DNA of 45,831 nucleotides from Bacillota bacterium (GTDB taxonomy: Bacteria > Bacillota > Dehalobacteriia > UBA4068 > UBA4997): NCBI GenBank assembly GCA_021769035.1, contig JAETTP010000015.1, positions 1 through 45,831 on the forward strand, given 5' to 3'. Under the pieces are notes generated by a model. It searched no databases. It had not been told where the DNA came from and saw only the letters and a program-made list of their open reading frames with translations. Shown here one piece after another: positions 15,127 to 30,340 of the stretch. Positions within the stretch are counted from its first letter, which is position 1. Every line of letters starts with the position of its first letter. The translations under genes were made by a program, and so were the position numbers.

Positions 15127-15161
15127 ATGTCCTGGAATGTCCGCCTAAATAATGCTAAAAT
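15127..15161 (+). promoter_or_regulatory. Special promoter element upstream of terS (copy 1)
   Basis: ATGTCCTGGAATGTCCG (15127-15143) contains TGTCC twice, exactly 10 bp apart, and TAAAAT follows (15156-15161), 13 bp after the second TGTCC. No sigma-A -35 box is present at the right place. The same 17 bp, the same spacing and the same -10 box recur at 16839-16873. This fits a dedicated activator or alternative sigma factor, as PBSX uses for its late operon. Confidence 0.75.
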
Positions 15162-15198
15162 ATTAACATCAAAAAATATCAAAAAAGGAGGGGTTGCT

Positions 15199-15447
15199 TT
15201 GGCGGAAAAGGGCCGGCGGGCAGTGGCCTGCAAAACGGAGATTATGCAGTTTTTGACGGAGGTGATGCGCGGCGAGGTGGCGGACGGCGCTGGAGCCAAG
15301 GAGCCGCAGCCGCCCAAGGTGAGCGAACGCACCAAAGCGGCGGAGCTTTTGGGCAAAAGCCAGCATATTTTTGGCGATAAAGCGGCGAAAGATAAGACGG
15401 CGGATAAGTTGCTTGAGGTGCGCATTTGGGGCGAGGAGGATTTGTGA
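15199..15447 (+). CDS. Phage terminase small subunit
   Basis: An 82-residue protein starting at TTG 5 bp after GGAGGGG. The frame is open upstream without a ribosome site. It carries the end pattern of small terminases (RTKAAELLGKSQHIF), and its stop overlaps the terL start region. It lacks the N-terminal helix-turn-helix of full-length relatives such as XtmA, so DNA recognition may be relaxed, as would suit non-specific packaging. Identified mainly from the C-terminal motif and its position before terL. Confidence 0.7.
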   Translation: MAEKGRRAVACKTEIMQFLTEVMRGEVADGAGAKEPQPPKVSERTKAAELLGKSQHIFGDKAAKDKTADKLLEVRIWGEEDL

Positions 15448-15449
15448 TA

Positions 15450-16682
15450 ATGGAGGAGATTTATTTGCCGGCGGTGGTGGGCGGTGGCTATGGCGATTTT
15501 TGGCATTTTAAGGGGCGGTATCGCGTGGTGAAGGGCAGCCGGGCTTCTAAGAAGTCTAAGACGGCGGCCCTGAATTTTATTTGGCGCTTGGTGCAGCTGC
15601 CGGAAACTAATTTGCTGGTGGTGCGCAAGACTTATCGCTCCTTGCGTGATTCCTGCTATGCGGAATTGTGTTGGGCTATTAATCGGTTGGGTTTGACGGC
15701 GGCCTGGCAATGCCGGGAGGAGCCTTTGGAGTTGACCTATCTGCCGACGGGGCAGAAAATTTTTTTCCGGGGCTTGGACGACCCGCAGAAGATTACCTCC
15801 ATTGTGGCGCGCGTGGGTAGCATTTGCTTTTTGTGGCTGGAGGAAGCCTTTGAGGTGAACCGGGAGGAGGATTTTGCCATTTTAGATGAGAGTATCCGCG
15901 GGGAGGCCCCTTTTAAGCAGCTGACGTTGACTTTTAACCCTTGGAATGAGCGGCACTGGCTGAAAAAACGTTTTTTTGACTGCGGGCCTGACCCGGAGAT
16001 TTTGGCTAAGACGGTGGATTATCGCTGCAATGAGTTTTTGGACGCGGCCGATTTGCAGCTGTTTGCCAATATGGCCCGGCAGAACCCCAGGCGTTATCGG
16101 GTGGCGGGCCTGGGCGAATGGGGCGTGAGCGAGGGGCTGATTTTTGAGAACTGGCGCGAGGCCGATTTTGACTGGCGGGAGCTGGCGGCTCGGCCGGGCG
16201 TGCGGCCGGTTTTCGGCCTGGATTTTGGCTATGTGAACGACGAAACGGCCTTGTTCTGCGGCCTGGCGGAGGCGGCGGAGCGGCGGCTTTACGTTTTTGA
16301 TGAGATTTATCAGCGGGGCATGAGCAATGAGCAGATTTTTGCCGAAATTAACCGGCGGGGTTACGCTAAGGAAAGTATTCGGGCGGACAGCGCCGAGCCT
16401 AAAAGCATTGACCGCCTGTGGGAGCTGGGCCTGCGGCGGATTAAGCCGGCCCGCAAGGGCCCGGACAGCGTGCGGCACGGGATTGACTTTTTGCAGGACT
16501 TTGAAATTGTGGTGGCCCCGCGTTGCCGCAGCTTTTTGGCGGAGATTGCCGCCTACTGCTGGCAGGTTGACAAGGAGGGGCGCATGTTGAATGTGCCGGT
16601 GGATAGGAATAACCACCTGATGGACGCGATGCGGTATGCAATTGAGGAAATTGCTTCGGGAGAAACGTTTAGTTTTGAATGA
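15450..16682 (+). CDS. Phage terminase large subunit
   Basis: A 410-residue DNA-packaging motor of the PBSX XtmB/terminase_3 type. The ATPase half has a phosphate-binding loop KGSRASKKSKTAA near the N-terminus and a Walker B region ICFLWLEEAFEV. The nuclease half shows the RNase H-like acidic residues in FGLDFGYVNDETAL, IRADSAEPKS and NHLMDAMRYAI. All key acidic residues are present, so the enzyme should be active. ATG chosen 10 bp after GAGGAGG; a GTG at 15444 is possible. A palindromic repeat follows. Confidence 0.9.
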   Translation: MEEIYLPAVVGGGYGDFWHFKGRYRVVKGSRASKKSKTAALNFIWRLVQLPETNLLVVRKTYRSLRDSCYAELCWAINRLGLTAAWQCREEPLELTYLPTGQKIFFRGLDDPQKITSIVARVGSICFLWLEEAFEVNREEDFAILDESIRGEAPFKQLTLTFNPWNERHWLKKRFFDCGPDPEILAKTVDYRCNEFLDAADLQLFANMARQNPRRYRVAGLGEWGVSEGLIFENWREADFDWRELAARPGVRPVFGLDFGYVNDETALFCGLAEAAERRLYVFDEIYQRGMSNEQIFAEINRRGYAKESIRADSAEPKSIDRLWELGLRRIKPARKGPDSVRHGIDFLQDFEIVVAPRCRSFLAEIAAYCWQVDKEGRMLNVPVDRNNHLMDAMRYAIEEIASGETFSFE

Positions 16683-16803
16683 CAAAAGCCCACTAGCACC
16701 TCATCTGCTTTGTCATCAGCTTATGCGCCTCGTCAACGTACTTCAGTACACCTCCTCGGCTTATAAGTTGATTCCGCGCATTTGAGGCACTATTGAGCTT
16801 TTG
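16683..16803. repeat. Large nested palindrome, MITE- or terminator-like
   Basis: Outer arms CAAAAGC (16683-16689) and GCTTTTG (16797-16803), then CCTCA/TGAGG, TGCG/CGCA, TCAAC/GTTGA and a tip GTAC-TTCA-GTAC fold into one long stem. TTTTTTG follows, so it can end the terS-terL transcript. The whole is about 120 bp with no ORF, resembling dispersed palindromic repeats or a small non-autonomous element. Confidence 0.6.
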
Positions 16804-16838
16804 TTTTTTGGTAAAAAATTTTAGGCCGAACCGCAAAC

Positions 16839-16873
16839 ATGTCCTGGAATGTCCGATTATACCGTGTTAAAAT
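16839..16873 (+). promoter_or_regulatory. Special promoter element upstream of portal gene (copy 2)
   Basis: ATGTCCTGGAATGTCCG (16839-16855) and TAAAAT (16868-16873) repeat the element at 15127-15161. Spacing to the start codon is also nearly the same, at 44 versus 43 bp from the -10 box. Confidence 0.75.
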
Positions 16874-16911: not shown

Positions 16912-18474
16912 ATGAAGAGTTTGACAGACGTTTGCCGCAGGCTGAGTGAGGCCGGCGGTTTTTTGACTGAAAGGAATATAAAAGCGGCGTTCCCTTTGGA
17001 AAACGCCGCTTTTATTATGCCTGAAAGACCGCTGGAGGGGGATTTGGATTTGCAGTTTTTGAGCTGGGAGCTGGGCTGCTGGCTGGATAGCCCGAAGCGG
17101 CGTTGGATGGAAACCGGCGAGGCCTACTTTGCCGGACGGCAGGATATTTTGCAGCAGCAGCGGCAGATTTTGGGCCGGGACGGTCAGCTGGAGGCGGTGC
17201 ATAATTTGCCGAATAACCGGCTGGTGAATAATCAATATGCTAAGCTGGTTAATCAGAAAACTAACTACCTGCTGGGCCAGCCCCTGACCTGGGAATGCGA
17301 CCGGCCGGAATATGCCGCGGCCTTGGGGCGGGTGTTTGACCGGCCTTTTATGCGGCTTTTGAAGCGGCTGGGTAAGGATTGCTACAATCAGGGGATTGCT
17401 TGGCTTTATCCTTATGTGGGAGCGGACGGGCGTTTACATTTTGCCCGCTTTGGCGGCCGGGAGATTTTGCCCTTTTGGGCGGACGCGGAGCATACCCGCC
17501 TGGAGGCGGCCCTGCGGCTTTTCAGCCGGCAGCTTTGGCGCAAAGGCCGCTTGCAGACGGTTTGGGGCGCGGAGCTGTTTGGCCCGGACGGGCGGCAGCT
17601 TTTTGGCTGGGACCCGGCCAAGGGCCGCCTGACCCCTTGGGCCTGGCCGGCGGCGGGCGAGAGCGGCGCGCGCTGCGCCTACCTGAGCCGGCAGCCGCAA
17701 GGAGCAGACGGTGGCCGGCAGGCCTTTAACTGGCAGCGCGTGCCTTTGGTGGCTTTTAAGCTTAACGAGCGGGAGCAACCCCTGATTTGCCGGGTGAAAG
17801 GCTTGCAGGACGCTTTGAACACAATGCTTTCCGGCTTTGAGAATGTGTTGCAGGAGGATGCGCGCAATTCTATTTTGGTGATTAAGAATTACGACGGCAC
17901 GGATTTGGCGGAGTTTCGGCATAATTTGGCGGCCTTTGGGGCGGTGAAGGTGAAAACCGTGGACGGCGCGGAGGGCGGCATTGACACCCTGAGCGTGCAG
18001 GTGGACGCCGGCAACTATCAGGCTATTTTGGAATTGTTGCAGCGGGCGATTATTGAAAATGGCTTGGGCTTTGATTCTAAGCTTGAGCACTCCTATCGGG
18101 CGGCCAATGAATTGAATATTAAATCTATGTACAGCGATATTTGCCTGGACGCTAACGACTTGGAAACGGAATGGCAGGCGGCGTTGCATGATTTGCTCTG
18201 GTTTGTGAACAGCTATCTGGCTTTCAGCGGGCAGGGCGATTTTTTTGACTGCGGCTGCCGTTTTATCTTTAATCGTGATATTACGCTGGACGAGAGCGAG
18301 GCCATTGACAACTGCCTGAAATCCTTGGGGCTGTTATCGCGCCGCTCCGTTGTGGCCCAGCACCCTTGGGTGGACGATGTGGAAAAGGAGCTGGAGCGAA
18401 TGGCGGAGGAGGAGGTTGCGTTTGCGGACAAGGCGACGGATAGGGCAACAGGTAAGGCCGCGGATAAGGGGTGA
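16912..18474 (+). CDS. Phage portal protein, SPP1 gp6-like
   Basis: A 520-residue portal that forms the dodecameric DNA channel at one capsid vertex. Family landmarks are YFAGRQDIL (about residue 74), NRLVNNQYAKLVNQKTNYLLGQ, GFENVLQEDARNSILVIKNYDG and the C-terminal FNRDITLDESEAI with a charged tail. The ATG at 16912 follows CGGAGGAATTAC. An in-frame ATG at 17017, after a terminator-like hairpin, would remove 35 residues not usual for the family. The gene starts its own transcription unit. The Mu F-like minor head protein that normally follows a portal is absent. Confidence 0.88.
   Translation: MKSLTDVCRRLSEAGGFLTERNIKAAFPLENAAFIMPERPLEGDLDLQFLSWELGCWLDSPKRRWMETGEAYFAGRQDILQQQRQILGRDGQLEAVHNLPNNRLVNNQYAKLVNQKTNYLLGQPLTWECDRPEYAAALGRVFDRPFMRLLKRLGKDCYNQGIAWLYPYVGADGRLHFARFGGREILPFWADAEHTRLEAALRLFSRQLWRKGRLQTVWGAELFGPDGRQLFGWDPAKGRLTPWAWPAAGESGARCAYLSRQPQGADGGRQAFNWQRVPLVAFKLNEREQPLICRVKGLQDALNTMLSGFENVLQEDARNSILVIKNYDGTDLAEFRHNLAAFGAVKVKTVDGAEGGIDTLSVQVDAGNYQAILELLQRAIIENGLGFDSKLEHSYRAANELNIKSMYSDICLDANDLETEWQAALHDLLWFVNSYLAFSGQGDFFDCGCRFIFNRDITLDESEAIDNCLKSLGLLSRRSVVAQHPWVDDVEKELERMAEEEVAFADKATDRATGKAADKG
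16978..17018 (+). other. Terminator-like hairpin inside the portal gene
   Basis: AAAAGCGGCGTT (16980-16991) and AACGCCGCTTTT (17002-17013) form a perfect 12-bp stem with a 10-nt loop, followed by ATTAT. It encodes residues 23-34 of the portal frame. Transcription from the upstream element must pass through it. Translation from 16912 would melt it, so it may act as an attenuator. Confidence 0.5.
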
Positions 18475-18479
18475 GTTTG

Positions 18480-19427
18480 GTGCAGCTGGATTTGCTGATT
18501 TGGGACGGCCGGCAGTGGTTGCAGCCGGCCTGGCTGGCCGGAGCGCGTTTGCAGCGGACGGCTAATGCCGCGGCGGTTTTGGATTTTTGCGTGGTTAAAA
18601 ACGGCCTGCTGAATTTTTTGGAGGGCGCGCCGGTCTATCTGCTGGCGGATGGCAAGCCGGTTTTTAAGGGCCGGGTTTTTGCTAAGCGGCGCAGGCAGCC
18701 GGAATTGATTTCGGTGCGGGCTTATGACCAGCTGCGTTTTTTGCAGAACCGTGACTGTTGCAGTTTTCGGGATTTTACGCCGGCTGATTTGCTGAAGCGG
18801 GTGTGTGCGGAAAACGGCTTGCAGGTTGGCCGGCTGGCCGACTGCGGCCTGCGCCTGCCCGCCCGCAGCTTTGATAACCGACGCTACTTGGATATGCTGG
18901 CGGCCGTTTTGCAGGAGGTGTATCTGGCCAAGGGCCGCCGCTATTTTGTCTATGATGAGGCCGGAGCGATTTGCCTGCAAAGCTGCTGGGATTTGCGAGT
19001 GAATATTTTGCTGACGGAGAACTGCCTGGGCGGTTGGGAATATGCGACCTCGATTGACGAGGGCGTTTGCAATCGGGTTAAGGTGATTTACGAGGACAAG
19101 CGCAAGGGCGAGCGGCGGCAGTTTGTGGCGGAGAATGCGGAGCGGATTGCCGACTGGGGTCCTTTGCAGCGGGTGAGCAAGAGCGCGGACGCGCAGGAGC
19201 AGACCCAGGCCAAGGCGCGGGAGCTTTTGCAGCAGGGCTGCCGGCGGCAGGAAAATTTGCTGGTGCGGGACGCGCCGGGCGATTTGCGGGTGCGCGGCGG
19301 CAGCATGGTTGGCGTGCGGCTTAATCTGGGCGAGCAGCTGGTGGATTGCTGGGCCTTGGTTAAGCGGGCGGAGCATAGGTTTGTGGACGGAAATATTTTA
19401 ATGGATTTGAGCTTAGAAGTGCAATAG
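18480..19427 (+). CDS. Phage baseplate hub protein, XkdQ/gpD-like
   Basis: A 315-residue protein of the XkdQ/YqbQ and late-control-D type. An N-terminal beta domain (GAPVYLLADGKPVFKGRVF) is followed by the hub fold (SVRAYDQLRFLQ, LLKRVCAENG, NRRYLDMLAAVLQE) and a long C-terminal region ending LVKRAEHRF. It forms the centre of the baseplate at the tube tip. GTG at 18480 is preferred since AAGGGGTGA provides the ribosome site; GTG at 18471 overlaps it. In PBSX this gene follows xkdP, but here it directly follows the portal gene. Confidence 0.8.
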   Translation: MQLDLLIWDGRQWLQPAWLAGARLQRTANAAAVLDFCVVKNGLLNFLEGAPVYLLADGKPVFKGRVFAKRRRQPELISVRAYDQLRFLQNRDCCSFRDFTPADLLKRVCAENGLQVGRLADCGLRLPARSFDNRRYLDMLAAVLQEVYLAKGRRYFVYDEAGAICLQSCWDLRVNILLTENCLGGWEYATSIDEGVCNRVKVIYEDKRKGERRQFVAENAERIADWGPLQRVSKSADAQEQTQAKARELLQQGCRRQENLLVRDAPGDLRVRGGSMVGVRLNLGEQLVDCWALVKRAEHRFVDGNILMDLSLEVQ

Positions 19428-19491
19428 CGGCTCATCTGAACTGATTTGGTTGGATTGTTCATATATTTTGTATGGAGGAGATGATAGGGGA

Positions 19492-19938
19492 ATGTATCAT
19501 TATTTTATTGGGGATATGGAGCTGCCGCTGGCGCCGGAAAAATATACCCTGCGCTTGCCGCCGGCAAATCAGACTGTGCGCCTGGCCGACGGGCGGGAGC
19601 TGAACCTGCTGCGGCCGCTGGGGCTGCGGGAAATCAGCTTTGAGCTGCTGCTGCCCTACTTTGAGGACAGCCCGCTGTTGCGGGACGGGGTGGCGGTGCA
19701 TAAGCCGATTTACTATCTGAACCGGCTGGCCGAATGGGCCGAGAGCGGCGAGCCGCGACGCTTGATTATTTACCGCTCCTTGCCGAGCGGCGAGGAAATT
19801 TTTAATACCAGCCTGCTGGTGAGCCTGGAGGAATATCAGGTTTTGGAGGCGGCCGACCTGGGTTTTGATGTGCGCGTGAGCCTGCGCCTGAAGGAATATC
19901 AGGAAAAAATTTGCCAGAAATATGTGGGCAGCCTGTGA
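19492..19938 (+). CDS. Phage tail protein, XkdP-like without LysM
   Basis: A 148-residue protein beginning MYHYFIGDMELPLAPEKYTL. The LPLAPEKYTL...NLLRPLGLREISFELLLPY pattern is that of the baseplate/tail-tip proteins related to XkdP. The C-terminal LysM domain of XkdP is missing. GGAGGAG lies 11 bp before the ATG. It would join hub and tube in a contractile tail. The order hub, then this gene, is reversed relative to PBSX. Confidence 0.65.
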   Translation: MYHYFIGDMELPLAPEKYTLRLPPANQTVRLADGRELNLLRPLGLREISFELLLPYFEDSPLLRDGVAVHKPIYYLNRLAEWAESGEPRRLIIYRSLPSGEEIFNTSLLVSLEEYQVLEAADLGFDVRVSLRLKEYQEKICQKYVGSL

Positions 19939-19965
19939 GGGCGGTTGAGAAAGGAGGCGCTGGAA

Positions 19966-20328
19966 TTGCAAACAGCGATGTTGGCGGAGGCCATTGCCAG
20001 CCTGGCGAAGCGGACGGCGGACAGCGAGGCGGCGGTGAATTTTGCTTTCGGCAAGGTTATGCAGGAATATCCTTTGCAGGTTATGCTGGAGCAACGCCTG
20101 CTTTTGCAGGAGGAGCAGCTGATTTTGACCGAAAATGTGATTGGCGCGGCCAGCCTGCGCACGGACAAGGAAATTTATATCCGGGAAAAGATTTACGACG
20201 TTTTTCATAATCTGGAGGCCGGTGACCGGGTGCTGCTGGCTAATGTGCAGGGCGGACAAAGCTGGGTGATTTTAAGCAAATATTATGCTACGGAGCTGGA
20301 CGAGCTTTTGGAGCAGAATGGTGGATAA
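19966..20328 (+). CDS. Phage tail protein, XkdR/DUF2577-like
   Basis: A 120-residue protein with a helical N-terminal half (LAEAIASLAKRTADSEAAV) and a C-terminal beta segment LEAGDRVLLANVQGGQSWVI. That resembles the OB-like core of DUF2577 proteins, baseplate parts next to the hub. TTG start at 19966 chosen because AAAGGAGG lies 8 bp upstream; the in-frame TTG at 19945 has none. The family call rests on one motif and on position. Confidence 0.5.
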   Translation: MQTAMLAEAIASLAKRTADSEAAVNFAFGKVMQEYPLQVMLEQRLLLQEEQLILTENVIGAASLRTDKEIYIREKIYDVFHNLEAGDRVLLANVQGGQSWVILSKYYATELDELLEQNGG

Positions 20329-20358
20329 AACAAAGTGGTTGAGGAGGTGCGGCCTTTT

Positions 20359-21357
20359 ATGGATTGGCAGGACGCGGAATGGCAGGATTTTTGGACGGAG
20401 TGGCGGCGTTGGCTGGCCTGGGAAAGCGAATGGCGGGTGGCGGAGCAGCAACAGGCCGAGCAACTGGGTTTGCTGCCGGCAATGCCGGTAAATCCGGCGC
20501 AGTTGGCGCAAGCGGCTGGGTTGACGGAGGGGGCCGGGTTGGAAGCGGCGGATTGGCGTTTGCTTTTGGGCGGCGGGCGGGCGGAGGCTTTTGGGCGGCA
20601 AGAGTTTGTTGGGCGGAGCCGGGAGGCGCGCCGGTCAGCGTTGAGCCGCCAAAGCAGCAAACGGTTGGCGGGGTTGACCGGGCCGGCGGTGTTTGATAAA
20701 GCGGCGGCCTATACGGCAGCGGGGAGAGAGGTGGGAGGGTTGGCCGGGCAGACGATAGCGCGGCCGCTGGAGAAAACTAACAAAATCAGGAATTGGCGCC
20801 CTGAGCCGCAAAGCCGGGCCGGCAAGCGGACGACGGAGAGGGCGGAAGCGGCTGGAGCAGTGGGCGAAACACTGACGGCGGAACAAGAGGCGGCAGCGGA
20901 GCAAGAGCCAGCGGCAGTAGGGCAAAAGCCCCTGCGGGTGAATTTGCGCAGCCGTTTGGCGGACAAAGTGGACAAGCCGGAAATCGCCGAGATTGCTTGG
21001 CCCGAAATGCCGAAAATGCCGGATTTGGCGGAAGTGCAAAGTATCGAAATTGCGGAAGCCTATAAAACGGCTGAAATGGCTGCCGGCGATAATCGGTTGC
21101 CCGAATGGCCGGAGGCCGAGTTGGCAGGAGAGGGTGGCGCTTTGAGTTTGACGGTACGGGAAAGTGAAAATGAAGCGCAGACTGCGTTGGCTGATTTGGC
21201 CAGGCGGCCGGAAAAGCCCCGCAAAGCGGAGGAAGCCGGGCGGGCGGATCTGTTTGCGCCGCAGGGCGGCGTCGATGTGGGCGCGGTGGCGGAGGCCGTG
21301 GCGGAAATCCTCTGTGCGGAGATTGAGGCGCAGTTGGGAAGCGTTTCTTTTGTGTGA
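20359..21357 (+). CDS. Phage-cluster protein of unknown function, Ala/Glu-rich
   Basis: A 332-residue protein with a tryptophan-rich start (MDWQDAEWQDFWTEWRRW) and a long low-complexity body rich in Ala, Glu, Arg and Pro. I see no known domain. ATG chosen 9 bp after GAGGAGGTG. It lies directly before the tail chaperone gene. In PBSX the tape measure lies on the other side of the chaperone, and no long tape measure exists in this cluster. This could be a short replacement, but it has no clear transmembrane or coiled-coil pattern. Confidence 0.6.
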   Translation: MDWQDAEWQDFWTEWRRWLAWESEWRVAEQQQAEQLGLLPAMPVNPAQLAQAAGLTEGAGLEAADWRLLLGGGRAEAFGRQEFVGRSREARRSALSRQSSKRLAGLTGPAVFDKAAAYTAAGREVGGLAGQTIARPLEKTNKIRNWRPEPQSRAGKRTTERAEAAGAVGETLTAEQEAAAEQEPAAVGQKPLRVNLRSRLADKVDKPEIAEIAWPEMPKMPDLAEVQSIEIAEAYKTAEMAAGDNRLPEWPEAELAGEGGALSLTVRESENEAQTALADLARRPEKPRKAEEAGRADLFAPQGGVDVGAVAEAVAEILCAEIEAQLGSVSFV

Positions 21358-21396
21358 AGTTTTAGGGCGAAAGAATTTAAGCGGGAGGTGAATTTG

Positions 21397-21789
21397 ATGG
21401 ACGGAAAATTGCGGGCCTTTTTGGCGGAGGGGGCCAAACGGGAGCATGTGCGGGTGGCCCTCTCCGACCGGTTTGTGGACGAGGCGGGGCAGCCGCAGCT
21501 TTGGGAGCTGGCCCCGCTTTGCGCAGAGGACGTGCAGCGGCTGTTGAGCGAGCCGGGAGCGGAAAGCGGCCGGCCGGGCCGGCTGCTGTTGCAGCTTTTG
21601 GCGGCCAGCGTGGTTTGGCCGGATTTGCAGGAGGCGGAATTGCAGGACAGTTGGGGCGCTTTGGGTGCGGAACAGCTGCTTTTGCGTATGCTCTCCCCGG
21701 GGGAGTTTGCGGCCTTGCAGCGGGCCTTTGTGGAGCTGAATTTGCAGGGGCGCAGCTTGAGCGAGCAGGTGGCGCAGGCAAAAAACTGA
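21397..21789 (+). CDS. Phage tail assembly chaperone, XkdN-like (frame 0 product)
   Basis: A 130-residue protein with the XkdN pattern: LRAFLAEGAKREHVRVALSD, then RFVDEAGQPQLWELAPL and EDVQRLL. It acts as the short form (gpG-like) chaperone that coats the tape measure during tail assembly. GGGAGGTG lies before the ATG; the GTG at 21388 is part of that ribosome site. Its last codons GCA-AAA-AAC-TGA contain a slippery heptamer leading to the extended product. Confidence 0.8.
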   Translation: MDGKLRAFLAEGAKREHVRVALSDRFVDEAGQPQLWELAPLCAEDVQRLLSEPGAESGRPGRLLLQLLAASVVWPDLQEAELQDSWGALGAEQLLLRMLSPGEFAALQRAFVELNLQGRSLSEQVAQAKN

Positions 21790-21820
21790 TTGCGGCCGGT
21801 GATTGGGAGGCGGCGGCCGC
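21780..21820 (+). promoter_or_regulatory. Programmed -1 ribosomal frameshift site
   Basis: The heptamer A-AAA-AAC (21780-21786) is correctly phased for the zero frame (GCA AAA AAC) and followed at once by TGA. Five nt later a stem GCGGCCG (21792-21798) / CGGCCGC (21814-21820) can stall the ribosome. Slippage leads into the downstream frame. Confidence 0.85.
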
Positions 21821-21947
21821 GGTGGCGGCTTTGCTGCGCTGGGGCTGGCGGCCGGCGGACTTTTTGCAGCTGCCGGAGCCGGAAAGAGCCTTGGTGATTG
21901 CCGGCCTGCAATGGGAAATGGCTGTTTTGCGGAAAGGAGGTGATTGA
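21786..21947 (+). CDS. C-terminal extension of tail chaperone made by -1 frameshift (gpGT-like)
   Basis: After slippage translation continues LIAAGDWEAAAAVAALLRWG for 53 codons to TGA at 21945-21947. The fusion product, starting at 21397, is about 183 residues. This frame has no ribosome site of its own near its beginning. A G/GT pair made by frameshifting is conserved in long-tailed phages, where the T part contacts the tail tube protein. Confidence 0.8.
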   Translation: MIAAGDWEAAAAVAALLRWGWRPADFLQLPEPERALVIAGLQWEMAVLRKGGD

Positions 21948-21995
21948 GAACCTTTTAAGATAGGGAGGTTTGGCGGAAAGGAGGTGTTTGAGAAA

Positions 21996-22448
21996 ATGAA
22001 AGAGGTGTTGCAAAAGCTGTTTGGCGATGTGGTGACGGAGGAGAATTTGCTGGAATTTGGCCGGCTTTTTGTCAGCCGGGCGGCTTTTGAGCGTTTGCAG
22101 CGGGAAACGGCGGCCGACCGCTTGCTTTTGCAGGCCGGAGCGAAGAACCTGACCGCGGCCAAGGCCCTGTTGGCTTGGCAGGAGATTGATTTGCAGGCGC
22201 AGGATTGGCAGGAGGGCCTGGCGGAGCAGGTGCGGGCCTTGCAGAAGGAGCCGGAAACGGCTTTTTTGTTTGCCAGAGAGTTTGACGGGCAGGACTGCGG
22301 CTGGCTGGGCCTGGCCCCGGCGGCGGCAAACGGCCCCCTGGAGGAAGCGGCGGCGGGTGCGGATTGGCGGCTGGCGCAGGCGGAGGGAGATAGTTTGACA
22401 TCTATCCGCTTGAAGCAGCGGGCTGCCAGAGAGCATAACTTGCTTTGA
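21996..22448 (+). CDS. Phage scaffolding protein, GP20-like
   Basis: A 150-residue, highly charged helical protein starting MKEVLQKLFGDVVTEENL, with coiled-coil-like heptads (FERLQRETAADRLLLQAGA, ALLAWQEIDLQAQDW). It has the layout of minor structural protein GP20, which acts as internal scaffold during procapsid assembly. It sits directly upstream of the capsid gene as expected. ATG at 21996 lies 8 bp after AAAGGAGGTG. Confidence 0.75.
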   Translation: MKEVLQKLFGDVVTEENLLEFGRLFVSRAAFERLQRETAADRLLLQAGAKNLTAAKALLAWQEIDLQAQDWQEGLAEQVRALQKEPETAFLFAREFDGQDCGWLGLAPAAANGPLEEAAAGADWRLAQAEGDSLTSIRLKQRAAREHNLL

Positions 22449-22528
22449 TAGAATGACTGATTAAGGCGGCGGGCGGGTTGGGGCGAGTACATTTTATTAT
22501 ATCTAAATATGAAAGGATTGATTGCATA

Positions 22529-23584
22529 ATGACACAGGTTAGTAATATGGGAACAGTTTGGAATTTGCCGAATTACGCGGGCGAACTTTTTTGCGCGGAC
22601 GCTATGCAGACCCCGCTTTTGGCGATGATTGGCGGACTTTCCGGCGGCCGGCAGACCACGAATTTTGAATTTCCGACCGCGGTGCTGTTTGACTACCCGG
22701 AGGCAGTGCAGCCGGCTATCTCCGAGGAGGCCGCAGCTACGGCCCCGCAGGCGACGATGGCCGCCCGCAGCCAGGAAAGTAATGTGGTGCAAATTCACCA
22801 GGAGGTTATTAATTTGACCTACGCCAAACAAAGCAACAGCGGGCGTATGCAGGGGTTGAACACCGCCATGCCGGAGGCTGACGCTTTGGCCGAGGAGCGA
22901 GCTTTCCAGGTGCAGCACAAGCTGATTAAGATTGCCCGCGATGTGGAGCACAGCTTCATCAATGGCAAATTTCAGCGCTCTACCGGCAGCAGCGTGGCCA
23001 ACAAAACCCGCGGCTTGCTGGAGCTTTGCAGCGCCGGCACTACCTTGGACGCTAAGGGCGCTAAGCTGAGCCGGGCGATGTTGCAGCAGATTTTCCGCGA
23101 GATGGCCGACAACGGCGCTTACTTTAGCAATATGGTGATGTTTTTGCCGGCCTATCAGAAGCAGGCCCTCTCCGAGCTGTTCAGCCAGCAGCTGGCCGGC
23201 TCCGCCGTTTATATGCCCAGCCAGCGCAATGTGGGCGGGGTGAATATCAGCGAGCTGGAAACTGACTTCTGCCGCCTGGGCGTTTGCTGGGACCGTTTTA
23301 TGCCGGCGGATAGTATTTTGATTGTGGACGTGGCCCACGTGGCCCCGGTTTTTCAGGCTGTGCCGGGCAAGGGCGTGCTGTTTGAGGAGGAGCTGGCTAA
23401 AACCGGCGCGGCGGATAAAATTCAGCTTTACGGCCAGATTGGGTTGGCCCATGGGCCGGCCTTTTTGCATGCTTCGATTACCGGACTGGACTGTGGCGCG
23501 ACGGCCGGAGGCACAGGCGGCACTGACGGCACAGGCGGCGCGGGTGGCGCAGGCGGCAATGACAGCGAAACGGAGAATTCCTGA
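22529..23584 (+). CDS. Phage major capsid protein, SU10/DUF5309-like
   Basis: A 351-residue HK97-fold capsid protein of the SU10 head protein type. The N-terminal region reads TNFEFPTAVLFDYPEAVQPA, and the E-loop/P-domain has VVQIHQEVINLTYAKQSNSG and DVEHSFINGKFQ. The C-terminal half has VDVAHVAPVFQ. The tail is a Gly/Thr-rich stretch (about 324-346) made of GGTGG-like repeats that may project from the capsid. ATG after GAAAGGATT; the stop overlaps the next ATG. This is the most abundant product expected of the cluster. Confidence 0.82.
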   Translation: MTQVSNMGTVWNLPNYAGELFCADAMQTPLLAMIGGLSGGRQTTNFEFPTAVLFDYPEAVQPAISEEAAATAPQATMAARSQESNVVQIHQEVINLTYAKQSNSGRMQGLNTAMPEADALAEERAFQVQHKLIKIARDVEHSFINGKFQRSTGSSVANKTRGLLELCSAGTTLDAKGAKLSRAMLQQIFREMADNGAYFSNMVMFLPAYQKQALSELFSQQLAGSAVYMPSQRNVGGVNISELETDFCRLGVCWDRFMPADSILIVDVAHVAPVFQAVPGKGVLFEEELAKTGAADKIQLYGQIGLAHGPAFLHASITGLDCGATAGGTGGTDGTGGAGGAGGNDSETENS

Positions 23585-24099
23585 TGTTGGCGGAGCTGCG
23601 GGAACGGCTGCTGGGCTTGGGCTATCAGTTTGCGGTCAGAGAGGCTGCTGAGGCTGGCGATATTGGCGAGGATAGCGATGCGGGCGAAAAATCCGGGGCT
23701 GCTGAAACGGCGCAGGCCGAGGAGTGCGCTTTGCACCTGGCCCTGCGCCGGGCTTTGAGCTATGCCCAGAATATTTGCAGCCTGCCGGAATTGCCGGAGC
23801 AAGCCGGGGAGGCTGGCGAGGAAGTGCGCTGGCCGACCGCCTGGCCGACGCTTTTGCGAGAGCCGGTTTTGGATTTGGCGGCGGCCTACTTTTTGCAGGC
23901 GCGTTTGGCCCTGCGCCCGGAGGAACTGGCGGTGATGCCGGTGGTGACCTCCCTGCGCCTGGGCGACGCGGCCCTGGGCTTTGCCGGCGGCAGCCAGAAA
24001 ACCGGCACCGACGCTTTGAGCCGGGCGGAAAGCTTGTGTAACTATCTGTTGCAGACGGCGTGGAGCGCCTTTTGCGGTTGGCGAGGGATTTTATGGTGA
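23584..24099 (+). CDS. Phage head-tail connector protein
   Basis: A 171-residue protein placed directly after the capsid gene, overlapping its stop (TGATG). It has an all-helical pattern (LALRRALSYAQNICSLPELP, EPVLDLAAAYFLQ, SRAESLCNYLLQTA) of gp6/YqbG-like adaptors that join portal and tail. An acidic, low-complexity insert (about 20-45) is unusual. Family call by position and helix pattern. Confidence 0.65.
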   Translation: MLAELRERLLGLGYQFAVREAAEAGDIGEDSDAGEKSGAAETAQAEECALHLALRRALSYAQNICSLPELPEQAGEAGEEVRWPTAWPTLLREPVLDLAAAYFLQARLALRPEELAVMPVVTSLRLGDAALGFAGGSQKTGTDALSRAESLCNYLLQTAWSAFCGWRGILW

Positions 24100-24488
24100 G
24101 CAAAATGAATAATACTTTTTACGCTGCGGCGGGGCGGCAGCTGGCCCGGCTGTTTGACGGCCGCTGCCGGGTTTATCGCTTGGCGGTGCGCCGGCTGGGG
24201 CCGGACGGGCCTTGCGTTGGCGACGCCTGGCAGGAGGCGGCGGGCGAGGTCTGGCCGTGCCATTTGGCGTTTTTGCAGCAGCCGCCGGCGGAATCTGCGA
24301 CGGACGGCTGCCCGGTGGAGGCCCGCTGCCGCTTGTTTTGGCCGCGGGATTTGCCGGGGCTTTCGCCCGGCAGCCGCTTGCAGGTGGAGCAGCAGGGACA
24401 GGTTTTTGAACTGGTTTGCAGCGGTTTTCCGGTTGCTTACCCGACGCATTGGGAGGCGGAGCTGCGTTTGCTGCCGGAGGGAGCTTGA
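24093..24488 (+). CDS. Phage head-closure/minor structural protein
   Basis: A 131-residue beta-rich protein (CRVYRLAVRRLGPD, VEARCRLFWPRDLPGLSPGS, LQVEQQGQVFELVC) in the slot where PBSX-like phages encode the head-closure or stopper protein. ATG at 24093 overlaps the previous stop; 24105 is an alternative. Identity is mainly from position and length. Confidence 0.55.
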   Translation: MVSKMNNTFYAAAGRQLARLFDGRCRVYRLAVRRLGPDGPCVGDAWQEAAGEVWPCHLAFLQQPPAESATDGCPVEARCRLFWPRDLPGLSPGSRLQVEQQGQVFELVCSGFPVAYPTHWEAELRLLPEGA

Positions 24489-24509
24489 GGCGGAGAAAGG
24501 AGGAGGCTT

Positions 24510-25031
24510 TTGCGGGATTTTTTGCAGGCTTTGGCTAAGAGGCTGAGCCAGCTTTTTGAAGAGCAGTGGCCGGTCTATCTGGGCCGGCTTTGGCAGGGCG
24601 AAAAAACGCCCTGCTTTTATCTGCCGCCGCCGGAATTGCAGCGGCGGCTTTTGCCCTGCGGCCGGGTGCGCCGGGAGATTGCTTTGGAGCTGCATTTTTA
24701 CGCGGGTAAGCTGCCTAAGCTGGGAGAGAGCGGCGAGCCGAGCCAAAACGGCGAATTGGTGCTAAGCCGGGAGCAGGTGGCGGAGAAGCTGCTGCGGGGC
24801 TTGGCGGCCTTTGCCGGCGGGCAGCGGGCTTATCGCGGCTGGGATTTGCGCTGTGATGTGGCCGGCGGCGCTGCGAACCAGCCGGGCCGGGAATATTTGC
24901 GGCTGCGGGGGCGTTATGTGTTTTATACCACGATGGAGCTGGAGGCGGCCGACGGCCTGAGCGATTGGCCTGAGGCGGCGGAATTGATGAGCTATTTCAA
25001 TATTAATACTGAAGTGAAAGAGGAGGAATGA
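24510..25031 (+). CDS. Phage tail terminator/completion protein
   Basis: A 173-residue protein starting at TTG, with AAAGGAGGAGG just upstream. An alpha/beta pattern (FLQALAKRLSQLFEEQWPVY, PCFYLPPPELQRRLLP, REIALELHFYAG, REYLRLRGRYVFYTT) matches the family that caps the tail tube next to the sheath gene in PBSX-like clusters (DUF6838-like). Its stop overlaps an ATG, but the sheath gene is better started at 25034. Confidence 0.6.
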   Translation: MRDFLQALAKRLSQLFEEQWPVYLGRLWQGEKTPCFYLPPPELQRRLLPCGRVRREIALELHFYAGKLPKLGESGEPSQNGELVLSREQVAEKLLRGLAAFAGGQRAYRGWDLRCDVAGGAANQPGREYLRLRGRYVFYTTMELEAADGLSDWPEAAELMSYFNINTEVKEEE

Positions 25032-25033
25032 CA

Positions 25034-26416
25034 ATGGCGTTTGGTGGAGGCAGTTTTGTGACGCAGAATAAAATTCTGCCGGGGGTTTACGTGAATGTGA
25101 ACCAGCAGAGCAAGGTGGGCTCCGCCCTCTCCGACCGAGGGGTGGCCGCCTTGGGTTTGGAATTGGACTGGGGCCCGGACGGCGAGCTGTTTTATCTGGA
25201 GGCGAGCGAGTTCCGCAGCCGGGCGCAGATCCTGTTTGGTTACGCTTACGGCGACCGGCATTTGCAGGGCCTGCGCGATTTGTTTCTGCATGCAGCGGGC
25301 TGCTATTTTTACCGTTTGAACAGCGGGGAGCGGGCGGCTTGCAGCCTGGCGGAGGCCCGCTTTAGCGGCGTGCGCGGCAACGCCCTGCTGGTTACGGTGG
25401 AGGCGGCCGAGAACAGAGAGGTTGGCGAAAGCGAGGCTGGCGAAAATGAGAGCGGTGTGGTTGTCGCGTCTGGCGAATCCGGCAATACGGAGGCGGCGAC
25501 GCAGTTTGTGGTGACTTCTTGGCTGGACGGGCAGGAGGTTGACCGACAACAGGTGAAAAGCGCGGCTGAATTGCTGGATAACGATTATATCTGTTGGAAA
25601 GGCGGGGCGACGTTGCAGGCGGGATATTTGTCTTTTAGCGGCGGCTCCAATAAAGCTAAGGTGGGCGCGGAGGATTATCAAAAGCTGTTGGAGGCCTTGG
25701 GCGAATGCGAATTTAATGCTTTGGGCTGCCTGAGCTGCGAGCTGGCCGTGCAGAATTTGTTTGTGCAATATACCAGAGAGCAGCGGGAGGACAACGGCCG
25801 CAAGTTTCAGACCGTGCTTTACAACTGCGCGGCCAACTACGAGGGGGTTATTAACCTGGGCAGCAAGGCCTTGGCCGAGGATTTGCCGGAAAGCGGCCTG
25901 GTTTTTTGGCTGCTGGGCGCAGAAGCCGGCTGCGCGGTGAATGCGACGCTGACCAATGCGGTTTACGATGGGGAAATTAAGGCCGAGGCCACCGCCAGCC
26001 AGCGCGATTTGCAGCAGGCTTTGCTGGAGGGCAGCCTGGTTTTGCACCGCCTGAACGGCGAGCTGCGCGTTTTGGAGGACGTGAACTCCTTGCAGAATTG
26101 GCAGGAGGGCGGCTTGGAGGACCGCCGTTTTAATCAAACGGTGCGCGTGCTGGACCAGATTGTTTTGGATTTGGCCGCTTTGTTTTATCAACGTTACTTG
26201 GGGATTGTGCCTAATGATAATGCTGGGCGAATCAGCCTGTGGAGCGACGTGGTGGCTTACTATCGCAAGCTGGAGGGCTTGCGGGCCATTGAAAGCTTTG
26301 ACCCGGCTGACGTCACGGTGGCCCAGGGCGAAAACAAAAAGGCCGTGGTGATTTCCTCGTATTTGAACGTGACCAATGCGATGTCGCAGTTATATTTGAC
26401 GGTGACCTTTAATTAA
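25034..26416 (+). CDS. Contractile tail sheath protein, XkdK-like
   Basis: A 460-residue sheath subunit. The typical start MAFGGGSFVTQNKILPGVYV and the C-terminal fold FNQTVRVLDQIVLDLAALFY ... VISSYLNVTNAMSQLYLTVTF are both present. A Glu/Ser-rich insert at about 130-160 (ENREVGESEAGENESGVVV) is longer than in usual relatives and probably lies on the surface. ATG at 25034 is 7 bp after AGGAGG. It shows that the particle has a myovirus-type contractile tail. Confidence 0.9.
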   Translation: MAFGGGSFVTQNKILPGVYVNVNQQSKVGSALSDRGVAALGLELDWGPDGELFYLEASEFRSRAQILFGYAYGDRHLQGLRDLFLHAAGCYFYRLNSGERAACSLAEARFSGVRGNALLVTVEAAENREVGESEAGENESGVVVASGESGNTEAATQFVVTSWLDGQEVDRQQVKSAAELLDNDYICWKGGATLQAGYLSFSGGSNKAKVGAEDYQKLLEALGECEFNALGCLSCELAVQNLFVQYTREQREDNGRKFQTVLYNCAANYEGVINLGSKALAEDLPESGLVFWLLGAEAGCAVNATLTNAVYDGEIKAEATASQRDLQQALLEGSLVLHRLNGELRVLEDVNSLQNWQEGGLEDRRFNQTVRVLDQIVLDLAALFYQRYLGIVPNDNAGRISLWSDVVAYYRKLEGLRAIESFDPADVTVAQGENKKAVVISSYLNVTNAMSQLYLTVTFN

Positions 26417-26428
26417 GGAGGGGTGAAA

Positions 26429-26896
26429 ATGGGAGTGACTATGAACGCCTGGGACGCGCTCTCCGCCGGGTTGGCAGAGTGCTATGTGACGATTGACGGC
26501 CGACGTTATCGCTTTATGCAGGCGATTAATCTGGAGGCCAGCATTGAAAAGAAAAAAATGCAGGTGCCGGTGCTGGGCCGCATGGGCCGCGGCAACAAGG
26601 GCGTGGGCTGGAGCGGCAGCGGCAAGGCGACTTTCCACTATAACAGTAGCTTGTTTCGGGAACTGTTATACCGCTTTAAGGAAAGCGGCGAGGATATGTA
26701 CTTTGATATTCAGATCACTAATGAGGACCCGGTGAGCAGCGTGGGCCGCCAGACCGTGATTTTGAAGGATTGCAACCTGGACGGCGGCGTGCTGGCGAAA
26801 TTCAGCGCGGAGGACGAATATTTGGAGGAAGAGCTGCGCTTTACCTTTGAGGATTTTGAAATCCCTGAAAAGTTTAGCGAGCTGGTGGGTATGTGA
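26429..26896 (+). CDS. Tail tube protein, XkdM-like
   Basis: A 155-residue tube subunit: AWDALSAGLAECYVTIDGRR, then the conserved KKKMQVPVLGRMGRGNKGVG and GKATFHYNSSLFRELLY. It stacks in hexamers inside the sheath. Length and motifs are standard. ATG at 26429 follows AAGGAGGGG. A GC hairpin CCCGGCC-GGAGA-GGCCGGG lies right after its stop and may stabilise or separate the mRNA. Confidence 0.9.
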   Translation: MGVTMNAWDALSAGLAECYVTIDGRRYRFMQAINLEASIEKKKMQVPVLGRMGRGNKGVGWSGSGKATFHYNSSLFRELLYRFKESGEDMYFDIQITNEDPVSSVGRQTVILKDCNLDGGVLAKFSAEDEYLEEELRFTFEDFEIPEKFSELVGM

Positions 26897-26900
26897 AAAG

Positions 26901-26919
26901 GCCCGGCCGGAGAGGCCGG
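26901..26919 (+). other. Strong intercistronic hairpin after tube gene
   Basis: A 7-bp GC-only stem, CCCGGCC and GGCCGGG, with a 5-nt loop and no U-run. It could set a 3' mRNA end for the highly expressed sheath-tube message or dampen baseplate expression. Confidence 0.45.
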
Positions 26920-26941
26920 GAAAACTGCGAGGTGATTTGAT

Positions 26942-27328
26942 TTGGCGGAGCTGAAAACGGTGCAGGAGGCGCGAACCTGGGCTTTGAACGATTTGGACGG
27001 CGAGGCTGGCGGGGCTGGCAGTTTTTTGCAGGGCAGCTGCGAGGGCTTGGCGGCCCTGCGACAGGCCGTGTTTTTGCTTTTGCAGACGGAGCGCGGCCGC
27101 TGGCCGGTTTTTTCCGCCGGGTTTGGCGTTGACCTGCTGGGGCTGGTGGGACAACCGGCGGCTTATGTTATCCCGGAGGCGGAGCGGCGTTTGCGCGAGG
27201 CCCTTTTGCAGGACGACCGGGTGCTGGCCGTGGAGGAATTCCGCTTTGCCCAGCAGGGCCGCAGACTGGCGGTTAGCTTTTTGGTGCGCAGCGTTTACGG
27301 CGATTTGCAGGCGGAGGTGGAGATATAA
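26942..27328 (+). CDS. Baseplate wedge protein, XkdS/DUF2634-like
   Basis: A 128-residue protein with the gp25-like wedge fold: ALRQAVFLLLQTERGRWPVF, then FGVDLLGLVGQ and ERRLREALLQDDRVLAVEEF. It starts at TTG, 8 bp after GAGGTGAT. In PBSX this gene is separated from the tube gene by xkdN to xkdR; here it follows the tube gene directly. Confidence 0.8.
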   Translation: MAELKTVQEARTWALNDLDGEAGGAGSFLQGSCEGLAALRQAVFLLLQTERGRWPVFSAGFGVDLLGLVGQPAAYVIPEAERRLREALLQDDRVLAVEEFRFAQQGRRLAVSFLVRSVYGDLQAEVEI

Positions 27329-27346
27329 AGGGGGCGAACTTAAAGA

Positions 27347-28420
27347 ATGTACGAAAATATGACGTATGAGAATATATTGGCTGGCATGCTGGAGCGAGTG
27401 CCCAGCCCGGTGGACAAGCGAGAGGGCGCTTTGCTTTGGGACGCTTTGGCCCCGGCGGCCTTTGAACTGGCCCGGCTTTACGAGGCTTTGGAGCTGGTTT
27501 TGCAGGAGGGTTTTGCGGACACGGCCTCCCGCGCCTACTTGATTTTGCGGGCCCGGGAACGGGGGCTTAGCCCCCGGCCGGCCAGCCCGGCCACGGCCCT
27601 GGGCCTGATTGAGGCGCAAACGGAGGTGGCCCTGGGCAGCCGTTTTTGCTGTGAGCGTTTTAACTGGCGCGTGACCCGCAGCCTGGGCGAGAACCTTTTT
27701 GAACTGGAATGTGAAGAGGCGGGCAGCGAGCCCAATGCTTATCTGGGGCGCATGGTGCCGCTGGAATATCTGAATGGTTTGAATAAGGCGGAGTTGCAGC
27801 GGCTGATTGTGCCGGGCCAGGACGAGGAGAGCACGGAGGACTTCCGGGCCCGGTACTTGCGGGATTTGGTGGAGCAGCGTTTTGGCGGCAACGTGGCGGA
27901 TTACGTGGCTAAGGCGGAAAGCATTGCCGGCGTGGGCGCGGCCAAGGTGCAGGCGGCCTGGAACGGCGGTGGCACGGTGCGCCTGCTTTTGCTGGACGAA
28001 AGCTTGGGCGTGCCGGAGGCGGCTTTGGTGGAGAGAGTGCAGCAGCTTTTTGACCCCACGGGCTTGGCGGCCGGCCAGGGCGCCGGTTTGGGACTGGCCC
28101 CGATTGGTCATGTGGTGACGGTGGCGGCGGCGGAGGCCAGGGTGGTGAACGTGGCTTTGCAGCTGACCCTGCGCGAGGGCTGGCAGGCAGCCGATGTGGT
28201 TGCCGCCGTGCGCGGCTGCGTGGAGGGCTATCTGGCGGATTTGCGGGCGGAATGGGCTGCAGCCGAGCATTTAACGGTGCGCGTCAGCCAGTTGGAGGCG
28301 CGCATTTTGCAGGTGCCGGGGGTTTTGGACGTGAGCGACCTGACGCTGGCCGGCGCGGCCGCTAATTTGCAGCTGGGCGAGGTGGAAATTCCGGTGAGGG
28401 GGCAGGTAGATGTCCGATAG
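27347..28420 (+). CDS. Baseplate J-like protein, XkdT
   Basis: A 357-residue baseplate protein. N-terminal YENILAGMLERVPSPVDKRE, middle LILRARERGLSPRPASPATA, then DEESTEDFRARYLRDLVEQRFGG; all are hallmarks of the baseplate J family. It links wedges around the hub. The end overlaps the next gene by 11 bp. Ribosome-site spacing at the ATG is long, so the exact start is not certain. Confidence 0.88.
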   Translation: MYENMTYENILAGMLERVPSPVDKREGALLWDALAPAAFELARLYEALELVLQEGFADTASRAYLILRARERGLSPRPASPATALGLIEAQTEVALGSRFCCERFNWRVTRSLGENLFELECEEAGSEPNAYLGRMVPLEYLNGLNKAELQRLIVPGQDEESTEDFRARYLRDLVEQRFGGNVADYVAKAESIAGVGAAKVQAAWNGGGTVRLLLLDESLGVPEAALVERVQQLFDPTGLAAGQGAGLGLAPIGHVVTVAAAEARVVNVALQLTLREGWQAADVVAAVRGCVEGYLADLRAEWAAAEHLTVRVSQLEARILQVPGVLDVSDLTLAGAAANLQLGEVEIPVRGQVDVR

Positions 28421-29027
28421 GCTTGTGGAAGCATATAATGCTAATGAAAACGGAAGCAGTGGGCCGGCGGAAAGCTTTGCCGCAAATGCCGGCGTGCTGG
28501 CGGGATATCTGCCGGATTTTCTGGTTAATATTCGGGATCTGGGGCAGGTTTTGCAGGTGGAGCAGCCTTATTTTCAGCAGGCTTGGCAGGCGGTGGGGCA
28601 GGCCTTGGCGGAGCAGTATATTTTGGGGGCCGGCGAGTGGGGCCTGGGACGCTGGGAGCAGCTTTTGCATTTGGAGGCCCCGGAAAGCCTGAGCCTGGAC
28701 GAGCGGCGGCAGGCCTTGCTTTTGCGCCTGAATGAACAGCTGCCCTTTACTGTGATCCGCTTGCGGGAGCTTTTGGCGGCGGCTGCGCCGGCCGGGCAAT
28801 ATACTATGGTTTTGGACGAAAAGAATTATGTGCTGCATGTTTATATTACGCTGGCGGCCAAAGGCTGCCTGCCGGCTTTGCGCGCGCTTTTGCAGCGGGT
28901 GGCCCCGGCCAACCTGAGCTTGCATTTGCAGCTTATGTTTAATACGCACGGCAAGCTGGCGAAATTTACGCATCAGCAGCTGAGCCAATGGAGCTGCTGG
29001 GCGATTAGAGAGGAGGTTTTGGACTGA
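28410..29027 (+). CDS. Phage tail protein, XkdU/YmfQ-like
   Basis: A 205-residue protein of the DUF2313 (YmfQ) type, the link between baseplate and tail fibre. Characteristic runs are LAGYLPDFLVNIRDLGQVLQ, YILGAGEWGLGRWEQLL, LDERRQALLLRLNEQLPFT and the C-terminal beta segment. It overlaps XkdT and its stop overlaps the next ATG, so the three are translationally coupled. Confidence 0.8.
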   Translation: MSDRLVEAYNANENGSSGPAESFAANAGVLAGYLPDFLVNIRDLGQVLQVEQPYFQQAWQAVGQALAEQYILGAGEWGLGRWEQLLHLEAPESLSLDERRQALLLRLNEQLPFTVIRLRELLAAAAPAGQYTMVLDEKNYVLHVYITLAAKGCLPALRALLQRVAPANLSLHLQLMFNTHGKLAKFTHQQLSQWSCWAIREEVLD

Positions 29028-30091: not shown

Positions 30092-30127
30092 TTTATTTAG
30101 TTTTGACTTGATAGGGAGGAATGAGGA

Positions 30128-30340
30128 TTGACAATTTTGCAGAGATTGGCCCGCTTGTTGGACGTGAAAAGTCTGGTGACGCTGGCTTTGGTGTTGGTTT
30201 TGTGTGTGATGACCCTGAGCGGCCGCGAGGTGAGCGAGCTTTTTGGCAGCGCGGTGATGTTGGTTTTGGGCTTCTTCTTCGGCAAGAATGTGCGCACGGA
30301 GGGGGAGCGCACCGACGAGAATAATCTGGGAGGAAAATAA
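30128..30340 (+). CDS. Small holin-like membrane protein
   Basis: A 70-residue protein starting at TTG, 8 bp after GGGAGG. Two hydrophobic stretches (LVTLALVLVLCVMTL and LFGSAVMLVLGFFFG) are followed by a charged tail, the form of small holins that release endolysin. The next gene, a cell-wall hydrolase, begins right after its stop, supporting a lysis cassette. Confidence 0.7.
   Translation: MTILQRLARLLDVKSLVTLALVLVLCVMTLSGREVSELFGSAVMLVLGFFFGKNVRTEGERTDENNLGGK

Follow-up and report, generated by a model that had tools for sequence, protein, structure and literature searches.

What controls the genes of a phage-like particle in a Bacillota genome is a question raised by a 17-mer, ATGTCCTGGAATGTCCG, which stands in identical form at the heads of both the packaging and the structural operon. 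The window analysed here is the entire contig C3 (45,831 nt) of the genome designated G000, an assembly of 2.23 Mb in 117 contigs, and the exact duplication described in the initial annotation was confirmed; a third copy is absent even when three mismatches are allowed (shuffle mean 0.06). Same-strand exact repeats of 17 nt number 43 in the window and belong to several families; the duplication by itself is a weak case, and it is the positions of the two copies and their conservation that carry weight (Table 1). Searches of the window against Rfam and for tRNAs found nothing. An intergenic stretch repeated at 29-109 and 1439-1519, about 1.4 kb apart, flanks a minus-strand frame.

The geometry of the two sites was also as first described. 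Each copy holds two TGTCC half-sites in direct repeat 10 bp apart, one helical turn, TAAAAT (15156-15161 and 16868-16873) lies 13 nt past the second TGTCC, and the start codons follow 43 nt (TTG, 15199) and 44 nt (ATG, 16912) on from the first base of TAAAAT. The reported lack of a sigma-A -35 was right in that only a weak TGGAAT (3/6 bases, 17 bp spacing) occupies that place, but the extended -10 (TGn) present at both sites had been overlooked. As no inverted repeat came up in the stretch before element 2, no terminator is claimed there.

Table 1. Features of the particle cluster and its candidate regulator. Positions refer to the window unless another contig is named.
Feature	Position	Strand	Evidence or remark
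Element 1, ATGTCCTGGAATGTCCG	15127-15143	+	half-sites TGTCC 15128-15132 and 15138-15142; orthologous sites in relatives
Extended -10 TGC-TAAAAT, predicted packaging promoter	15153-15161	+	TG, TA invariant in 15/15 aligned cluster promoters
terS (small terminase), TTG start	15199-15447	+	phrog_51, E 2.2e-6; Terminase_2 under cut-off
terL (Terminase_3)	15426-16682	+	PF04466, E 5.8e-50
Element 2, same 17-mer	16839-16855	+	half-sites 16840-16844 and 16850-16854; kept before portal in 7/8 genomes
Extended -10 TGT-TAAAAT, predicted structural promoter	16865-16873	+	TG invariant across aligned cluster promoters
Portal (SPP1_portal), heads structural operon	16912-18474	+	PF05133, E 7.8e-64
Terminator-like hairpin 1 with T-run, in portal frame	16934-16959	+	promoter-proximal hairpin at 7/7 portal sites
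Terminator-like hairpin 2, 14-bp perfect stem with T-run	16978-17015	+	G000 and G006 only
Remaining structural genes: YqbQ-like, XkdN-like, scaffold, SU10-type capsid protein, sheath, tube, baseplate, fibre, M23 peptidase	18471-30958	+	profile matches
X, candidate activator, 135 aa, orphan, unlinked to cluster	C58:2612-3016		divergent from CI-like repressor, host genes beyond

Judged by portal matches, the particle cluster is present in eight of the nine genomes of the genus Candidatus Avidehalobacter, gut bacteria placed by NCBI in the Peptococcaceae, and its gene order from packaging to tail is common to the cluster-bearing genomes. Downstream, lspA-rluD was found in all seven genomes whose downstream flank was read (G000, G006, G007, G001, G004, G002 and G008), and the upstream flank (cotF) is common to G000, G006, G007 and G001. 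Comparison of G000 with G006 or G007 gave dN/dS values of 0.01-0.18 for terL, portal, capsid, sheath, tube and baseplate J, indicating purifying selection on these six genes. Its capsid, terminase and contractile tail genes occupy a constant chromosomal position, a PBSX-like state, and give the cluster the marks of a domesticated phage-like particle held at a single locus across the genus. A particle kept in this way under purifying selection is probably useful to the host, whether for gene transfer, for killing or in some other role. The order of the tail genes is unusual (18471-21789), with the YqbQ-like gene, neighbouring tail genes and a 340-aa protein of unknown kind between portal and capsid; the interval from tube (26896) to baseplate (26942), the expected place of a tape measure, holds no gene, and the 340-aa gene may encode a very short tape measure.

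The element is as widely kept as the cluster, preceding the packaging genes in all eight cluster-bearing genomes and the portal in seven of them. It stands before terS in G000, G006, G007, G001, G004, G002 and G008, in degenerate form in the last, and in G003 before terL and an XkdN-like gene, not before portal. Over these 16 cluster sites, positions 2, 4, 6 and 11-14 of TGTCnTnnnnTGTCCG are invariant and bases 7-10 vary (GGAA, GTTT, TGTT, TGAA); such conservation of the half-sites around a drifting middle argues for the direct-repeat reading more strongly than the window alone. Across 23 sites, some of them degenerate, TGTC-N6-TGTC-like direct repeats of the kind seen with Ltr-type regulators end 13-14 nt before a -10 box, the spacing from TGTCC being 13 nt at 14 sites and 14 nt at nine. 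In the 15 aligned cluster promoters (the alignment leaves out terS of G002) the TG, TA and AT of the extended -10 (TGnTA..AT) are all invariant, and the box reads TGnTATAAT in G004, G002 and G008.

Searches beyond the cluster, which the initial annotation had called for in the form TGTCC-N5-TGTCC-N13-TAAAAT, point to a tiny, phage-related regulon. The 15-mer TGTCCTGGAATGTCC occurs three times in exact form in its own genome, twice in the window and once on contig C79, and in none of the other genomes among the 61 searched. On C79, where TAAAAT follows at 14 nt, the copy is flanked by a Sak4-like and a DUF669-type gene (phrog_2698; the name DUF669 was taken from annotated relatives) of a prophage that carries RusA, AAA, helicase and primase genes, a phrog_36 regulator and its own terL, so that the third core copy does not precede a particle gene. 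Allowing up to three mismatches, TGGAATGTCC-N13-TAAAAT gave 29 matches in this genome against 16 for the reversed control; only the window sites matched perfectly, the C79 site differed by its spacing, and there were 26 others. Neighbours of the 15-mer at two mismatches on C27 and C28 were discarded, having no -10 in place.

At the level of the class, the relaxed pattern TGTCNTNNNWTGTCYG-N11..13-TANNNT had 13 matches in eight of 43 genomes, all of this genus, and none in the 34 class genomes outside it; its reversed control had two matches in the 43. Within the genus, a search at three mismatches found 21 places (reversed control, 4), comprising nine at the cluster, six at prophages or tail clusters and six others that were read and judged unrelated. 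In sister species, copies also stand at prophage tail, late and regulator genes. Because the relaxed pattern is confined to the genus and the half-sites are near-invariant, the element can be read as the mark of a dedicated particle regulon, very small and phage-related; the regulon first proposed is supported for the particle operons, but must be widened to take in prophage genes. So narrow a regulon speaks against a LexA-type direct-repeat box, which was also considered.

More distant relatives added little to this distribution. Relatives of TerL in genome contigs occupied 77 loci, in which the element pattern accounted for nine sites, all in L279-L283 and all of this genus; four poor matches in L321, L324 and L331 were rejected, and the 72 loci beyond L279-L283 held no convincing element. 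Nor was the element seen in the upstream regions of the 22 (out of 33) portal relatives inspected. Among viral contigs, the exact 15-mer occurred in 20 stretches, all of which were read and treated as chance, and the core with a -10 in 67, of which only those of L081, L147 and L150 were promoter-like; these three are the DUF669 promoter of related prophages. The core was found upstream of three of 26 DUF669 relatives (L081, L082 and L083). The first TGTCC had been considered essential, a view weakened by L082, which has TGGCA there, yet all 16 cluster sites retain its G and C. In an unrelated viral contig (L010, 4102-4125), GCAAAGATGTCCTGGAATGTCCG is intergenic, ahead of a near-perfect palindrome, with a GCAAA extension and no TAAAAT; this doubtful case may be a coincidence or may be distantly related to the box.

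The prophages of the genus indicate what kind of site this could be. In them short direct repeats come immediately after a phrog_36-type regulator gene, together with a -10 like that of the cluster, the repeats being TTGTCCG-TT-TTGTCCG and then TGTGCTATAAT on C79 (G004:C17 is alike), TTGTTCG-TT-TTGTTCG on C65, TTGTCCGAAAGTGTCC on G006:C1, TTCG-type on G007:C35 and G001:C13, four 10-bp CRTACA repeats on C114, and GATACCAAAT behind a regulator-like gene of the viral contig G061. Their spacing is 9 or 10 bp and their -10 boxes are mostly of the TGTGnTA type. Because prophage regulators adjoin like repeats and a -10, we read the cluster element as a late-activator site even though it has no such gene beside it. 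Ltr of Phi13 and its kin (RinA, ArpU, Alt), late activators of Gram-positive phages, are described as regulators of about 130 aa encoded just upstream of their own late promoter, which in the account of Phi13 has three 18-bp repeats and a partial one beside the regulator gene (PMC13123087). The genus prophages share this layout, and the cluster resembles it in its direct repeats upstream of the -10 and in the control of packaging and structural genes, but differs in that it uses a pair of half-sites spaced 10 bp, has two promoters and is not linked to its candidate regulator. A regulator gene directly upstream of the promoter is present in the genus prophages and absent from the window cluster, which we therefore do not file as a standard Ltr module.

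That candidate, X, is encoded in all nine genomes of the genus (52-82% identity outside G000), in each case adjoining the CI gene. It matches Sigma70_r4 (PF04545; 35.2 bits against a cut-off of 24.1) and the phrog_36 transcriptional regulators (E 7.6e-26), and falls below the curated cut-offs of the RinA/ArpU families (TIGR01636, 23.8 vs 31.9 bits; TIGR01637, 16.1 vs 43.1 bits). In its structural model (mean pLDDT 80.5) the C-terminal part resembles sigma region 4, for example that of 3vfz (TM 0.72 by target length, with no significant E-value). At 135 aa and with a sigma-region-4-like helix-turn-helix, X resembles Ltr, RinA and ArpU in size and predicted fold, and the comparison with PBSX and its factor Xpf made at the outset has found a counterpart in this Xpf/Ltr-type protein. 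The C-terminal helix of X differs between clades, and the half-sites hardly do. We consider X the most likely cognate activator of the cluster element, to which it would bind.

The divergent neighbour of X combines a helix-turn-helix with an S24 peptidase in which Ala-Gly at 86-87, Ser119 and Lys157 are invariant in all nine genomes; we take these to have the catalytic roles of their counterparts in LexA, and CI is thus predicted to be a LexA-like self-cleaving repressor. By eye, the X promoter reads TTGAC-N17-TATATT in eight of the nine genomes (TATCAT in G003) and is overlapped in G000 by an inverted repeat; the element is absent from it. The operator-like inverted repeat of CI, TAACAAA...TTTGTTA, is in turn absent from the window at up to three mismatches. 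In G005 neither portal nor element was detected, though the CI-X pair is present; this may be an assembly without the cluster, or X may have other targets.

Taken together, the best explanation, and one we hold to be probable, is that a late promoter with a housekeeping-sigma extended -10, for which the element serves as activator site, drives both operons under X and CI. In place of a -35, such a promoter would have the direct pair TGTC-N6-TGTCCG, whose half-sites are separated by one helical turn and end 13-14 nt ahead of the -10. RNA polymerase would be recruited by a sigma-region-4-like late activator (Ltr/RinA/Xpf kind) bound to this pair; terS-terL would depend on one copy, and portal with the other structural genes on the second. 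The strong promoter of X would be kept silent by CI until DNA damage led to cleavage of this repressor, whereupon X would accumulate and transcription would start at both promoters together, placing the particle under SOS control. The same element before both operons, kept across the genus, bears out the shared control first envisaged, and the packaging and structural genes are accordingly predicted, from this arrangement, to be co-induced.

The initial annotation had left the choice between a special activator and an alternative sigma factor. For the latter, TGGAAT/TGTCC would be the -35 and TAAAAT the -10 of an ECF-like factor, a reading that draws on the placement of the element at the -35 position, on the sigma region 4 of X and on the TGGAATGTCC part being the best kept in the prophage DUF669 promoters. 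In Pfam, however, X yields region 4 only and no region 2 (core and -10 binding), the -10 in G004, G002 and G008 is of the canonical extended housekeeping type, and a varying middle beside a kept outer half-site suits an activator with two sites. We consider an ECF-like factor unlikely; because all 15 aligned cluster promoters carry the extended -10, an alternative sigma factor is not needed, and the special activator, with X as candidate, stands.

Prophage genes are usually under CI-type repression, and since the element overlaps the -35 position it could instead be a repressor operator over a weak promoter. Its repeats are direct, however, not inverted, the only conserved CI has the different operator-like repeat noted above, and no good -35 remains for an unassisted promoter, although this last point is softened by the ability of an extended -10 to function without a -35. 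An operator is, on balance, improbable. A further candidate for the activator's role, in place of X, is a late regulator of a prophage (C79 type) that would work in trans at the domesticated cluster: the regulators of C79 and G004:C17 adjoin TTGTCCG repeats (9 bp spacing) that resemble the cluster element, making cross-binding possible, and on G007:C35 the element itself lies upstream of such a prophage-type regulator gene. Against this, the element is present in G002, G003 and G008, where the regulator has only weak matches in G002 and G008 and none in G003. Because good orthologues are limited to G000, G006, G007, G004 and G001, a C79-type regulator cannot serve all element-bearing species, and we think it very unlikely to be the activator.

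Control of the cluster by X and CI, as preferred here, has parallels in other particles. PBSX of Bacillus subtilis, a contractile phage-like particle that has been domesticated, has capsid and terminase as well as a repressor (Xre) and a positive factor, and its regulators and particle genes are contiguous. Particles of this type package random host DNA and do not propagate themselves. The present cluster is like PBSX in its YqbQ-like and XkdN-like genes, capsid and terminase, but has its candidate switch on another contig and a different gene order. Pyocins, which are not known to have capsid or terminase, are by description similar to CI, X and the element in arrangement, with a different box. 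In the R and F pyocins, the self-cleaving repressor PrtR and the activator PrtN are reported together with a conserved P-box before the particle cluster (PMC8609362), and Xpf of PBSX has been called sigma-like (PMC4243946). The Caulobacter gene transfer agent is likewise a domesticated particle under activators, described as GafYZ, one of the two with a sigma-like helix-turn-helix, and with a terminator near the start of its cluster (PMC11150451). As set out there, it differs in the GafZ site, an inverted repeat between -10 and -35, and in the participation of IHF (PMC11150451).

A terminator-like hairpin raises the further reading that the regulator is mainly a Q- or GafZ-like antiterminator and that only modified polymerase passes a promoter-proximal terminator. 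Such a hairpin lies within 300 nt of the -10 at all seven portal sites, compared with 26 of 200 random 300-nt control windows (score of at least 19), and X is weakly Q-like (phrog_79, E 8.6e-4). These seven sites represent only about three independent lineages, however; the hairpin lies within the translated portal frame in G000, G006, G007 and G001, some prophage hairpins have no good T-run, and none of the seven terS sites has a hairpin, although the G003 site before terL does. Antitermination as the main role of the regulator has, in our estimate, a low probability; as a second layer at the portal, added to activation by X, it is possible. In the window both hairpins (16934-17015) lie no further into portal than codon 35, and the second encodes an insert missing from G007 and G001.

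The DUF669 promoters of C79, G006:C1 and the viral contig G061 retain TGGAATGTCC, from which the late repeats beside these prophages' own regulators differ (TTGTCCG, TTGTCCGAAAGTGTCC and GATACCAAAT, respectively). This suggests that the prophages respond to the X of their host, with common descent of the promoter as the plain alternative. A wider picture, which we offer as tentative and rather doubtful, is that a domesticated prophage has been split genus-wide, the CI-X switch being separated from the locus of the particle genes, that X is an activator and at the portal also an antiterminator, and that resident prophages carry the host's X box before their DUF669-type replication-module gene and so wake with particle production. 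If the box is indeed shared in this way, mobile phages would be tapping the control of a domesticated one. Among the papers listed by a literature search on domesticated-prophage late promoters, no report of such an arrangement was found. The element offers a handle on the timing of particle production, in the form of a promoter pair with a candidate activator and a candidate switch responsive to DNA damage, and a sequence signature for finding the rest of the regulon.

Sheath, tube and baseplate genes also occur in further tail clusters of the genus, at L371 (G007:C35, 1-10584), L369 (G006:C32, 6600-15200), L047 (C65) and L233 (C45). These may be prophages or tailocins, and several of the genus's further tail clusters are preceded by the element or by late repeats.
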